Shown here: positions 45,119 to 51,466 of the stretch, in pieces
How positions within the stretch are numbered: the first letter of the stretch is position 1
How the letters are laid out: every line of letters starts with the position of its first letter
Assembly (NCBI RefSeq): GCF_009192765.1
Contig: NZ_VOHQ01000009.1
Coordinates: 1-64,000, forward strand
DNA: 64,000 nt
Direction of reading: 5' to 3'
From: Agriterribacter humi
GTDB lineage: Bacteria; Bacteroidota; Bacteroidia; Chitinophagales; Chitinophagaceae
Position numbers and translations under genes: made by a program
The notes under the pieces: generated by a model
What the model was told of the DNA's origin: nothing
The model's database searches: none
Seen by the model: the letters and a program-made list of their open reading frames with translations, nothing else

Positions 45119-46618
45119 TCAATAGGTTCCCCTGTATAAATTATCGCCCTTCATTGGAGCTGCTCTTTTTAGAGGTATTTGAAGACCGCCGGTTTTATCG
45201 AGCCAGTTAAACAACTCCGTTTTCAGCTGCATGCCTGTTTTTCTATATGCCGTATCGCGGATCAGGTTGTTCATTTCATAAGGGTCATTTTTCAAATCAT
45301 ACAGCTCGTTAATATCCCACACGCCATTATAATAAATATACTTATAGCGATCCGTTCTTACTGCAAAAGTGGTAGGGGTTTGGGGAAAAGCCTGTTCCCA
45401 GTAATACTCATAAAACACTTTATCGCGCTGCCAGTCCGCTGTCTGCCCCTTTAATAAGCCTGCAAAAGAATAGCCCTGTATCTGCGATGGTTTGTCAATA
45501 CCCGCCAGTTGCAGGAAAGTAGGTGCGATATCCACGTTCATGATCACCTGTTCCAGTACCGATGAAGGTTTCACCATGCCGGGTGCCCATACCAGCATGG
45601 GAACCCGCATAGATTCTTCATACGCATGTCTTTTATCTATTAATCCATGCTCTCCAAATGAAAAGCCATTATCACCCATATATACAACCATGGTGTTTTG
45701 TTCCTGCCCGTTCTCTTTTACCCATTCCAATATTTTCTCAATGCTGTCATCCACCGCCTGCAGCGTTTCGAGGTAGCGCCGGTAAAAATCATCAAATACA
45801 ATAGTGCCATGGTACATATAATCCACACCATGCCAGCTATACCGCTGGTTGCGTACCCATTGGGGAATATCGCGGTAATTTACTTTTGTTTGAGGAGCCG
45901 TAACGGTGCCGAATGTTTTGCTGCTATCCGTTACCGTTAAATACATGGAAGGCGGGCTAACCACAGGAATACCGGCATACTTTCCTTTGTGCCTTTTGGC
46001 AGGGTAAAATTCGGCGTGCACACCTTTGTGCGACAAGTAAAGAAAAAAAGGTTTGCTTTTATTGGTTTTATTCAGCCAGGCAACGGCATAATCTGTCAAA
46101 AGATCAGTAGTATATGCGCTGTCAGTATGTTCTACCTGTTTACCATTGATATTAAATACGGGATTGTAATATACACCCTGGTCGCGGAAGCTGATCCAGT
46201 AGTCGAAGCCCGGCTGGGGATTATCATTATTGGTGGCGCCCATATGCCATTTTCCCATGAACGCAGTTTGATAGCCTTTCTGCTGCAGGTATTGCGGAAA
46301 GAATTTAAGGCCGCCGGGTAACGGAGAATTGTTGTCTACAACGGTGTGGGTATGCGCATACTGACCGGTTAATATGGAGGCCCTGCTGGGAGAACATAAG
46401 GCCGTAGATACAAATGCATTCTTTATATGCATCCCTTCCCGTGCCATCCGGTCCATGCCCGGTGTTTGCAATCCCTGTATTTTATTCATGAAGCCCATAG
46501 CATCGTAGCGGTGATCATCTGCCAGAATGAAAATGATGTTCATGGGTCTTTGCTTTTCCGGTTGCGGGAACGCCCGATTTGCGGATGCGATAAACAGCAG
46601 CAATAACAGAAAACGCAT
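45119..46618 (-). CDS. Secreted sulfatase (formylglycine type)
   Basis: 499 residues with a signal peptide (MRFLLLLLFIASANRAFPQ). Alkaline-phosphatase-fold sulfatase S1: metal ligands IIFILADDHRYDAMG, the formylglycine motif LCSPSRASILTG with Cys75, GKWHMG, VHAEFYP, VVYMGDNGFSFGEHGLIDKRH and a C-terminal RTDRYKYIYYNG...ELYDLKNDPYEMNNL. Cys75 must be converted to formylglycine by a maturase that is not in this window (GldJ has the fold but is structural). It lies in the decayed glycan locus, next to a GH3 remnant. Substrate, probably a sulfated glycan, is inference. Confidence 0.95.
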   Translation of the reverse strand: MRFLLLLLFIASANRAFPQPEKQRPMNIIFILADDHRYDAMGFMNKIQGLQTPGMDRMAREGMHIKNAFVSTALCSPSRASILTGQYAHTHTVVDNNSPLPGGLKFFPQYLQQKGYQTAFMGKWHMGATNNDNPQPGFDYWISFRDQGVYYNPVFNINGKQVEHTDSAYTTDLLTDYAVAWLNKTNKSKPFFLYLSHKGVHAEFYPAKRHKGKYAGIPVVSPPSMYLTVTDSSKTFGTVTAPQTKVNYRDIPQWVRNQRYSWHGVDYMYHGTIVFDDFYRRYLETLQAVDDSIEKILEWVKENGQEQNTMVVYMGDNGFSFGEHGLIDKRHAYEESMRVPMLVWAPGMVKPSSVLEQVIMNVDIAPTFLQLAGIDKPSQIQGYSFAGLLKGQTADWQRDKVFYEYYWEQAFPQTPTTFAVRTDRYKYIYYNGVWDINELYDLKNDPYEMNNLIRDTAYRKTGMQLKTELFNWLDKTGGLQIPLKRAAPMKGDNLYRGTY

Positions 46619-46634
46619 ATCGTTCTTTTTTAAG

Positions 46635-46786
46635 TAAATTCAGTTGCCCTATTTTTTCAGCAATCGTCATTTTGCTCATCAACGATGAAACAAAAGCGTT
46701 CATCTTTGTTTGCTGAGCAACAGTTTGCATCTGTGCTGTAAGCGGCAGGTAAGCACGAAAGTAATAATAGTAAGGAGGAGTTTCAT
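46635..46786 (-). pseudogene. N-terminal remnant of a GH3 beta-glucosidase
   Basis: On the minus strand an ATG at 46786 opens a signal-peptide-like frame (MKLLLTIITFVLTCRL). After a frame change, residues QQTKMNAFVSSLMSKMTIAE and KIGQLNL follow (to about 46635). That stretch is the hallmark start of mature BglX-type family 3 glycosidases (K-M-x-x-F-x-x-x-LMxKMTxxEKIGQLN). Everything after GQLNL, i.e. the whole catalytic domain, is gone, replaced by the upstream DNA of the sulfatase gene. So it is a deleted gene of which only the first ~50 codons remain, and those carry a frameshift. Confidence 0.75.
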
Positions 46787-47604: not shown

Positions 47605-47907
47605 TCGTAAGTTATTAATAATTTCAAAAATACAACTGGTTCCGGCTTTGGCAGCGATTATAATCAAATGATATACCTCATTTATATAAGGTTAAGTTAT
47701 TGAAGGTAACCCTTTCTGTTAATTAAGTTGCGCTGAGGGTCTTCATAAAGAGCCATTATGAGCAGCTATGAAACCCTGGCGTTGAACGATTCGCCAGGGC
47801 CGCTCTTCTCACGTTGCCCTGCTGTGGAGACCCCATCGAGTCCCAAATCACAATACAAAGCAGACCTGTGCCAGTCTTTAGAATGTCCATGTTATAGTAA
47901 TTTATAC
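47605..47907. other. Gap between SGNH esterase and GH43 pseudogene
   Basis: 303 bases without a supported gene. Contains a perfect 8-base stem CCCTGGCG (47774-47781) / CGCCAGGG (47792-47799) with a ten-base loop. A 149-codon plus-strand frame from 47758 mostly lies antisense to the GH43 pseudogene and is not credible. Confidence 0.45.
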
Positions 47908-49024
47908 TTACTCCGCTTTTATCAGACTGCCTTTTTGCGATACCCCGTTTTCATTGATCGCCTCTATGTTAAAGTAATAAGGTTTCTGGCTGTCCATTGC
48001 CTTAAACCAATACTCATTGGCATTGTGCACCATTATGCAATTGTACAATTTATCCGGCGCGGTGCCGTAATAAATATTGTATGCATAAGCATTATTTACC
48101 GGCCGCCATTTGAGCCAGGCGCTTCGTTTATCCTTTTCAGTACGCAATACAATAAAATCTTTTACCGCTTCAGGCTTTGCTCCAGCGCCTTTTCCAAAAA
48201 CCCTTAACCCGCTGATGGCAAACTTACCGGTAGGCATGTGTATATTTTCAGCTTAATGAATCTCGCCTGTACAGGAGTTGCCAGTTCCACGTAATCATGC
48301 GGCACATCTTTTTTATTACCGCTTTTATCTATCAGGATTTTCCATTTTTTGCCGTCTTCTGAATAATACATTTTATACTGGTGATATACCCCCAATAATT
48401 TACCGAGGAAACTACTGTCCACATCCTGGTCGGCATAATTAACCTGTATGGCATTAACGGTGTTCACTTCTCCCAGATCGGTTTGTATCCACTCTTCTTT
48501 ATTTGCGGTGGCGGCGCTCCAGTAGGTCTTAATGCTTTCATCCACCGCGTTATTGGCGGTATAACTACCCAGGGTAGACGAAACTGTAACCGGCTTATTA
48601 TAATTCAATAACATCCAGCCGGCAAAATATGCCGAAGGGGCGGCACTCTTTATAGTGCTTTCAACGGCAGTTGCATCGGGCAGGTAATGCGGGTAATCGC
48701 CAAAAGCCGTATTACAAAACATCACATCATCTTTATCAAATCCTGCGGGGCAAATGCTGATCCTTCTTTCAAGATTATTTTTTACTGACAACACGGTTGT
48801 TGACACATGCCAGTAATTGTTCCCCTTATCCTGAAAAGTAGCGCCATGGCCCGCACCCCGTGCAAATCCGCCAGGCTTATAACTGAAAGGATCGCTTTGT
48901 GGGGTGAAAGGTCCCAACGGATCGTCTCCTACCACAACGCCATCTGCGTAACCGCTGAACTCCGTACCCGGGGCTCCGTACTGCAGGTAATATTTACCGT
49001 TATGCTTAGTCATCCATGCCCTCA
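47908..49024 (-). pseudogene. 5'-truncated, frameshifted GH43-like glycosidase with F5/8C domain
   Basis: The minus strand encodes the C-terminal ~370 residues of a secreted family-43-type glycosidase of Bacteroidota: AWMTKHNGKYYLQYGAPGTE, FSYKPGGFARGAGHGATFQD, CNTAFGDYPHYLP, then an F5/8 type C (discoidin) domain (GSYTANNAVDESIKTYWSAA, WIQTDLGEVNTVNAIQVNYA) and a fibronectin-III-like end (WLKWRPVNNAYAYNIYYGTA). Two lesions: the first part of the catalytic domain is missing, the remaining gene starting exactly where the RAYT gene ends (49022-49025); and a frameshift near 48245, where a run of four T (plus strand) appears to have lost one base, moves RFIKLK out of frame with HMPTGKFAISGLRVFG. 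Nonfunctional unless rescued. Confidence 0.85.
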
Positions 49025-49579
49025 AAATAAATAATCAATTTCCATTATCCCCCTGCCTGTTATATAGTTGGAAGCACTGGAATACAAATAATCTTCAGGC
49101 TCTGCCACCCAACCCGCTTTTACAGGATTGTTATGGATATAGTCAAGCTTTGTCCTTAAAAACTTTTCTGTTACAATTTCTTCCGGATGATTTGTACCTG
49201 TCCATATTTTATACTCTTTATTTTGATTGGTTTGCTGCGCATGAAATTGAAACATACGCAGCAGCCATTCTCTCCTGCTTTCATTTTCGGTTTGTATGGC
49301 ATGAATGAATTCCTTTGTGCAAAAGGATTTAAAATCCCTGACCGTATCACTCAGTTTTCCACACTCAGACTGCCAGATAACATGCATATGATTCGTCATT
49401 ATTACATAAGCGCCTATCGAAAGCTGTTTCTTTAACCTGCAATGCTGCATGTTTTTTACCAAAATGTCCCTGTAACACTGGCGGCTGAACAAATCTATCC
49501 AGTCTACAACAGTAAAAGTCATAAAATGCAATCCGTGCTGGTTGCGAATTTTATAGCCATCAGCGTTTTCGTAACTCAT
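49022..49579 (-). mobile_element. REP-associated tyrosine transposase (RAYT, Y1 HUH type)
   Basis: 185 residues from the ATG at 49579 (an upstream frame to 49714 runs through the palindromes). Transposase_17/IS200-like fold: start YKIRNQHGLHFMTFTVVDWI, HUH motif NHMHVIWQ (H-x-H), catalytic-Tyr region ...LRTKLDYIHNNPVKAGWV, end DYLYSSASNYITGRG. RAYTs are domesticated single-copy transposases that act on REP palindromes. Two GC-rich hairpins lie 30-80 bases upstream. The stop codon overlaps the truncation point of the GH43 pseudogene, so the element probably sits where the glycosidase 5' half was lost. Confidence 0.9.
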
Positions 49580-49611
49580 AGGTGGTGTTTTTAAGGTGGT
49601 TAATGATCCGC

Positions 49612-49657
49612 ATCGCCAGAGGCGATAACAATATCGTGTGAGGCGATGACGCCTCAC
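49612..49657. repeat. Twin REP-like hairpins upstream of RAYT
   Basis: Hairpin 1: ATCGCC-AGA-GGCGAT (49612-49626). Hairpin 2: GTGAGGCG-ATGA-CGCCTCAC (49638-49657). Both have perfect stems of six and eight base pairs, 11 bases apart. Placement next to a RAYT gene is the classical REP/REPtron arrangement; no further copies were noticed in this window. Confidence 0.8.
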
Positions 49658-49852
49658 AAAGCGTTTTTCATACAGCGTTGTATTGCATGCAGCACAATTA
49701 AAGTGTTGTTTCATGGTTTTTATTTTAAGCGATGAATAAACCTTGTATCTATCTGCGGCTCATCACATCATTTGAAGGCTCATCGTACAAAAGCGCACAC
49801 AACGAGCACCTGAACAATATGTTTGCGACTCTGCGGCTAGCTATACATCTAT

Positions 49853-50302: not shown

Positions 50303-51466
50303 CTATACCACCGGCCATTTAAAAACAGATTGCAACTGTATTTTTTTACCCGTATTGCCGGAAGCCCTTGCCGCTTCTATTACTTCCAGTACATGCAATG
50401 CATGTTCGGCAGCTATCAGCGGTTCTTTGCCGGTGATGAGCGATTCTGCAATAACACTTGCCCCCTGCTGCCATACATAGGTCCCCGGGTCGGGTAAGTG
50501 CCTTACCGGTGGCTCGGTAAATGAAGTAGCCAGATCCACACCAAACGGCGCCCAGTCATATCCGATCAATCCCATATTGCCCTTTGTTCCCCAAATGGTG
50601 ATCGTAGGATTTTGCTGTCCTTTTCCCTCATGGCCGTATGGATCAAAATAATTGAATCCACATTGCACATGTGAAATAACACCTTCACCATGATCCATTA
50701 ACAGCATGGTATTGTCTTCTGCTTCTACTTTTATCTTTCCTTTATTATCTACCGTCCTTTCAGAAGTTACAATACTGGTCATGGCCATTACATGTTTTGC
50801 AGGACCAAGTAATCCTGTTAAAGTGGCAATATTATATACGCCAAGATCGGGCAAGCTGCCGCCGCCCTTTTCATAAAAGAAGGCCGACCATGTGGGTCCC
50901 AGGTGACCGTAATGTGCATGTGCGCTGGAAATCTTTCCTAATTTACCTTCACGGATCGCCTGCGACATGAATGCAAATTGCGGGCTGTTAACCACAGCCG
51001 GTGCGCCCCATATCCGCAGGTTTTTACTTTTAGCCAGATCCAATAATGCTTTCCCCTCTTTATAGGTGTTTGCCATAGGCTTTTCGCTCCACACATGCTT
51101 TCCGTTCTGCAGCGCCTGCTTATTAAGCCGCCCATGTTCCTGCATATCGGTGAGCGTTATCAGCAAATCAAAAGGAGCGCCAGTCAATTGCTGATCTATA
51201 TGCGGGTATTGATGGGGGATATTGAATTCCTGTGCTCTTTTTTGAGCACGGGAAAAAACAATATCGCATGCACTTACCAATTCCACAAAGGGCGATTTTG
51301 ATAAATGTGGTAAGTACACACCGGAAACGCTGCCGCAACCTATTACAGCCACTTTAATTTTCTTATCCGGCATTGTAAGTGCAAAGCCCTCCAAAGCGGA
51401 TAACAGCATTGCGGCGCCGGCCATAGCAGTATGCTGCAAAAATTGTTGACGGGTGAAGATTTTCAT
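50303..51466 (-). CDS. Exported Gfo/Idh/MocA-family oxidoreductase
   Basis: 387 residues. The N-terminus (FTRQQFLQHTAMAGAAMLLS) looks like an export signal but lacks a full twin-arginine. Rossmann motif VAVIGCGSVSGVYLPHL, then FDLLITLTDMQEHGRLNKQA, the NAD-family signature GKHVWSEKPMANT (E-K-P), and the C-terminal substrate domain with GGGSLPDLGVYNI. Such enzymes oxidise, epimerise or hydrolyse sugars and glycosides with bound NAD(P). It fits the glycan-locus context (45-53 kb). Confidence 0.92.
   Translation of the reverse strand: MKIFTRQQFLQHTAMAGAAMLLSALEGFALTMPDKKIKVAVIGCGSVSGVYLPHLSKSPFVELVSACDIVFSRAQKRAQEFNIPHQYPHIDQQLTGAPFDLLITLTDMQEHGRLNKQALQNGKHVWSEKPMANTYKEGKALLDLAKSKNLRIWGAPAVVNSPQFAFMSQAIREGKLGKISSAHAHYGHLGPTWSAFFYEKGGGSLPDLGVYNIATLTGLLGPAKHVMAMTSIVTSERTVDNKGKIKVEAEDNTMLLMDHGEGVISHVQCGFNYFDPYGHEGKGQQNPTITIWGTKGNMGLIGYDWAPFGVDLATSFTEPPVRHLPDPGTYVWQQGASVIAESLITGKEPLIAAEHALHVLEVIEAARASGNTGKKIQLQSVFKWPVV

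Follow-up and report, generated by a model that had tools for sequence, protein, structure and literature searches.

A private deletion at an old RAYT locus probably broke the adjoining GH43 gene in Agriterribacter humi

In the 64,000-nucleotide stretch of Agriterribacter humi DNA analyzed here (the window), a truncated GH43 gene adjoins an intact RAYT gene (REP-associated tyrosine transposase) with twin hairpins upstream of it. Comparison with relatives makes it highly probable that a private deletion of about 783 bp at an old RAYT locus broke GH43, that the RAYT did not jump in, and that what we see is mostly ordinary gene decay. The break is a deletion and not an insertion, because the sister genome G006 carries the same RAYT upstream of an intact GH43 and the window differs from it there by one missing block. 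With the RAYT there first, the locus no longer serves as a tempting example of RAYT mobility.

The broken GH43 gene and its RAYT neighbor

The features discussed below are as follows, in window coordinates.

47908..48248, minus strand: C-terminal tail of the GH43 remnant in a shifted frame, continuing after the frameshift
48248..48249, no strand: one-base frameshift in the GH43 remnant (alignment with G006)
48249..49021, minus strand: first frame of the GH43 remnant, beginning at residue 219 of the intact 588-residue G006 protein
49021..49022, no strand: deletion junction, where about 783 bp of G006 (L060 8043-8825) are missing (BLASTN)
49022..49579, minus strand: RAYT, 185 aa, intact (NF047646, invariant HuH/Tyr, dN/dS)
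49611..49663, minus strand: twin-hairpin repeat pair A, upstream of the RAYT (covariance model, 67.9 bits; covariation)
49612..49626, no strand: small hairpin of pair A, 6-bp stem (sequence)
49637..49658, no strand: large hairpin of pair A, 9-bp stem (sequence)
50306..50307, no strand: site at which a solo hairpin pair, present in G006 (L060:10063-10116), is absent (alignment)

Transcription on the minus strand runs through a gene that we take from its sequence to be Gfo/Idh-like, DoxX, the twin-hairpin repeat, the RAYT, the GH43 remnant and a GDSL-type lipase gene. In G006, a 97% identical RAYT lies directly upstream of a GH43 gene encoding 588 residues. In BLASTN, window 47842-49021 aligns to L060 6863-8042 and window 49022-49752 to L060 8826-9577, leaving colinear flanks and a single 783-bp gap. 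The missing block holds the inverted hairpin pair found 3' of the G006 RAYT together with the start of GH43 and its codons 1-218. An intact GH43 from a relative, which the sequence-only reading had proposed as a means to define the break, thus places the junction at 49021|49022. The same reading had put a RAYT with twin hairpins exactly at the break, and this is confirmed, with GH43 resuming at residue 219; it had also seen the RAYT stop codon overlap the GH43 fragment (A-W-M-T-K-H-N), and the stop codon at 49022-49024 indeed overlaps that frame, which reads L-R-A-W-M-T-K-H-N from 49025.

The RAYT itself is whole. Its conserved start is the ATG at 49579; a longer 230-aa ORF (49022-49714) reads through the hairpins as an upstream extension, and the alignable protein begins at the 185-aa ATG. 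The HuH motif is NHMH at residues 63-66 and the catalytic Tyr147 lies within YIHNNP, with H64, H66 and Y147 invariant in 11/11 aligned relatives. NCBIfam identifies a full-length family member (REP_Tyr_transpos, NF047646, 108 bits against a cut-off of 80). Pfam gave no family for it at E 0.001, and the sole match of a PDB profile search, 4er8 TnpArep (E 7.5e-8), covers the C-terminal part only. Against G006 the gene has a dN/dS of 0.056, from 24 synonymous and 7 nonsynonymous differences; it is under purifying selection and has been retained. By analogy with its family, the likely substrate of this RAYT is single-stranded DNA carrying its twin-hairpin repeats, at other places in the genome.

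GH43, in contrast to the RAYT, is a pseudogene. The remnant spans 49021-47908 in all, and Pfam recognizes in it an F5/8 type C domain; its match to GH43 is partial (profile 186-286 of 288) and, at 27.6 bits, falls under the 32.2 cut-off. As the sequence-only reading had remarked, the lost 5' half is not to be seen: it has no match in the window's own genome at E<=0.001, in a search run without a positive control. The two parts of the remnant have dN/dS values of 0.096 and 0.108 against G006, and it seems that most of their divergence arose while the gene was still under selection. Measured against the split between the window genome (G000) and G006, the gene seems to have been lost recently, because these values are near those of the three neighbors (DoxX 0.084, Gfo/Idh-like 0.058, GDSL 0.053). 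On the sequences compared, the break also looks private to this genome among those examined.

A GH3-like gene nearby has fared similarly. Only a stub of 42 residues remains at 46623-46745, 85% identical to the 765-aa protein of G006 (42 of 749 residues matched), and other GH3 matches in the window's own genome are at most 42% identical. The carbohydrate-degradation cluster is decaying, because the GH43 fragment is frameshifted and the nearby GH3 is only a stub. A sulfatase-like gene (45119-46618) adjoins the stub, the rest of the GH3-like gene being gone; within the 20 kb surrounding the G006 RAYT, nothing matches this sulfatase-like gene above 38% identity. In the gap between GH43 and the GDSL gene, which is shorter and unalignable in G006, we also noticed by eye an inverted repeat with 8-base arms (47774-47799).

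Age of the RAYT-GH43 adjacency

RAYTs of this subfamily (E<=1e-60) occur as one copy in each of 6/12 genus genomes, G007 being the exception to the single-copy rule with its second, truncated unit. Under a stricter threshold (E<=1e-72), 17 of the 394 genomes drawn from the family have one. Five of the six RAYT-bearing genus genomes (G000, G006, G002, G004 and G007) have the RAYT directly upstream of GH43, and in all of these except G000 the GH43 gene is open and full length (577-588 aa). G000 and G006 group together in both trees (GH43 100/98, RAYT 97/96). G002, G004, G007 and G008 form one clade in the RAYT tree (100/99) and are grouped with G005 and G001 in the GH43 tree (86/94). The two trees agree on the well-supported groups; both are small, with weak support at several inner forks. 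The RAYT is therefore old and vertically inherited, given the adjacency in five of six genomes and the agreement of the trees. A 74% identical RAYT at another location in G024, of another genus, makes transfer between genera possible.

The sequence-only reading took the junction as evidence that the hairpin-RAYT unit had moved. That interpretation does not survive the comparison: the same RAYT stands upstream of an intact GH43 in G006, the adjacency recurs in three more genomes and the trees agree. It had also held that a junction fixed across distant relatives would mark an old event unrelated to RAYT activity. Here the answer is divided, for the adjacency is old, whereas the break looks recent and, among the genomes examined, occurs in this one alone.

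Three other genomes show how the locus has varied. In G008 the RAYT (L065) follows a GH144-like gene (a name we presume from its sequence) and GH43 is on another contig. The GH144-like gene also precedes DoxX-RAYT-GH43 in G002 and G004. We dropped movement of the RAYT in G008 as a candidate, the gene still being behind its GH144-like neighbor; a rearrangement starting just downstream of the RAYT unit seems to fit better. G005 has DoxX, one solo hairpin pair and GH43, without the RAYT, and its GH43 branches with those of G002 and G004 (99/98). The simplest reading is probably that the RAYT was lost there and left a solo repeat pair behind. The second RAYT unit of G007 (L062:3893-4196) lies between GH43 and the GDSL gene; it retains both hairpin pairs but, of the RAYT itself, only the final third. 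Between the two G007 units, identity is 95% in the upstream pairs and 83% in the shared 3' part. The second unit adjoins an unrelated 244-aa ORF. Judged from its sequence, it would show that whole units can be copied somewhere in the genus, the one such sign in our data, and it favors the general idea of mobility put forward earlier, but at a different junction. The genus thus shows the RAYT kept, probably lost and partly duplicated.

The twin-hairpin repeat and its dispersal

A covariance model of 53 nt and 16 pairs gives a usable description of the repeat. The foot is followed by a stem of 10 pairs capped by a 4-nt loop; then come a linker of about 10 nt and a second stem, of 6 pairs, with a 3-nt loop. 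In 22 copies, taken from the window genome and seven other genomes, standard pairs make up 97.4% of pair cells, and 7/16 pairs vary at both positions. Covariation scores 0.326, compared with 0.140 for shuffled and at most 0.088 for slid versions, with the structure derived from the same alignment that was scored. These 22 copies were chosen by a pattern fixing the GCT foot and parts of both stems, so their agreement at GCT proves nothing. We therefore turn for the foot to 50 copies found by the model, drawn from 66 model rows over 33 loci after leaving out 15 rows below 48.9 bits and one duplicate: GCT is present in 44/50. The repeat does not belong with the GTAG REPs, because GT[AG]G stands at the hairpin foot in 0/50 copies.

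In G006, G002, G004, G007 and G024 a hairpin pair precedes the RAYT and an inverted one follows it; the same holds weakly for G008, where the downstream pair scores 26 bits. The window keeps the upstream pair only, because the downstream pair was within the deletion. A wider scan covered 43 RAYT-like loci, seven of which were dropped when the HuH word was not found. Of the remaining 36, 17 have perfect twin hairpins on the upstream side, 15 on the downstream side and 11 on both, where shuffles expect 0.1 loci per side; 15/36 have none on either side. Some of the downstream matches (L033, L035, L037) are two large hairpins or a terminator-like one. Across these loci the stems vary and the layout is constant.

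Copies of the repeat are also dispersed. The sequence-only reading had suggested scanning the genome for the hairpin pair and for other RAYT copies. The first hairpin pattern had no second exact copy in the window genome, and the covariance model raised the count there to at least 10 (E<=0.001); the protein nearest to the RAYT there is 46% identical. Elsewhere we counted at least 14 copies in G006, 59 in G002, 50 in G004, 22 in G007, 24 in G005, 21 in G003, 26 in G009, 10 in G008 and one each in G001 and G010, with none in G011 among the candidates scored; all these are lower bounds, as 150 first-look candidates per genome were scored, at E<=0.001. G003, G005 and G009 have more than 20 copies each without this RAYT subfamily and encode other RAYTs, the best 39-47% identical. 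The RAYT may have been lost from these genomes, or another RAYT may serve the repeats.

Among the best 150 of 238 repeat matches there are at least 16 neighboring pairs within 200 nt. Of the pairs among these matches, 11 face each other as they do around the RAYT, 3 are opposite and 2 direct; six of the 11 facing pairs are only 5-6 nt apart, and one is the truncated G007 unit itself. One repeat pair has also come or gone between the sister genomes: the G006 interval separating DoxX from the Gfo/Idh-like gene holds 84 additional nt that contain the solo pair and have CTAT at both ends. The gap between GH144 and DoxX offers no clean presence/absence site, since each of the three genomes compared has a partly decayed repeat there. 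In G004 (L063:3340-5799), a gene of 705 aa that we take to be prolyl-oligopeptidase-like sits between two direct copies of the hairpin pair, and the 30 bases after each copy agree at 28/30.

Origin of the break and known systems

We propose that the starting point was an old, vertically inherited RAYT directly upstream of GH43, and infer that the G006 state is ancestral. A single deletion of about 783 bp, later than the split from G006, would have taken the downstream inverted hairpin pair and GH43 codons 1-218 while leaving the RAYT whole. What is left of GH43 also carries a frameshift and is a pseudogene, within a carbohydrate-degradation cluster that is losing genes. The deletion was presumably an ordinary illegitimate joining, and the RAYT presumably acts on the repeat. 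Some observations sit less comfortably with a plain deletion: the RAYT-side break, between the stop codon and the lost repeat, lies 8 nt from that repeat, nearer than a random deletion would often land; there is the truncated G007 unit; and as it stands the junction has no clear microhomology. The 4 bases GAAG occur at both deletion ends in G006, and their use would require a further 2-base change.

The idea that the hairpin-RAYT unit disrupted GH43 by transposing into it, as the sequence-only reading held, draws on the contact between the RAYT stop and the GH43 fragment and on a 5' half that has no match in the genome. It is hardly credible in the face of G006, which has the same RAYT in the same place with an intact GH43 and both hairpin pairs and so rules out insertion. 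The inverted downstream pair expected on a moving unit is missing in the window, and the RAYT and GH43 trees are concordant on supported groups. The hairpins could instead have promoted the deletion during replication, through slippage or through nucleases that cut palindromes, with no part for RAYT chemistry. Both hairpins of the downstream pair are inside the block and one of its ends is beside them, but the other end is about 700 bp off in coding sequence, with only a 5-bp stem nearby besides a 4-base direct repeat, and we think this route unlikely.

The earlier suggestion that the RAYT caused or exploited a deletion or insertion holds in part: about 783 bp were lost at the RAYT edge relative to G006, there was no insertion, and we strongly doubt that the RAYT was the cause. 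For it to be so, the RAYT would have cut single-stranded DNA 3' of the downstream repeat and joined the end to a distant GH43 site, an off-target deletion by a domesticated transposase that spared its own gene. The 8-nt distance of the RAYT-side break, 3' of the lost repeat, speaks for this, as does CTTC, read on the + strand at both break regions in G006; according to the available text of PMC8266576, other TnpAREP proteins cut C|T beside REPs, and that of E. coli also cuts at some distant sites. The junction, however, misses an exact C|T join by 2 bases, the dinucleotide CT is common, and the 110 bases around the GH43-side break contain only one 5-bp stem. Nor does CT have a preferred position beside 50 repeat copies (0-6/50 per position on the 3' side, 0-8/50 on the 5' side). 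We accordingly rejected the candidate of a conserved C|T cut next to the repeat.

Among described families the RAYT is closest to TnpAREP/RAYT subclass 2.6 (Bertels group 5), mostly from Bacteroidetes, whose pattern is given in the portions of PMC6006769 available to us as NH[LIV]H, WQ, YIH[QN]NP, about 82 aa between HuH and Y, and a C-terminal SS. The window protein has W69-Q70, YIHNNP, 81 residues from H66 to Y147 and YSSAS; its NHMH is one letter off the pattern, and V, I and L are found at this position in relatives. Flanking structures without GT[AG]G, with copies elsewhere in the genome, are a further likeness to that account. The structures there are called atypical and were found by eye, whereas the window locus has a resolved 53-nt twin hairpin with covariation, the downstream copy of which is deleted in the window genome. 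The protein does not fit IS200/IS605, whose members have several near-identical copies at different places, as the nearest protein in its own genome is 46% identical and the motif is YIHNNP rather than Y[IV]ENQ. In the literature searched, as far as its accessible text goes, we found no description of the twin hairpin of this RAYT in this bacterial family; PMC6006769 and PMC3733652 describe the kind.

TIRtrons, with their TIRYT genes, are RAYT-like genes with double palindromic inverted repeats, as described in the accessible part of PMC3733652. Inverted repeats of two palindromes each flank this RAYT in the relatives as well. Like those TIRs, some of which have two palindromes, the repeats are unrelated to GTAG REPs and occur elsewhere as single members or dimers. 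The GGGGWSAS of some TIRs is absent from the window-repeat consensus, repeats being compared by description. REPINs, as the available sections of PMC3116915 present them, offer another parallel: window-type repeats also occur in close inverted doublets, arranged as around the RAYT. They differ in having two hairpins per unit and not one, and in their low copy number (at least 10 here, up to at least 59 in the genus). The same sections state that RAYTs appear incapable of self-mobilization. The second G007 unit fits that immobility less well, while the window locus agrees both with it and with the double palindromes reported in the consulted text of PMC3733652.
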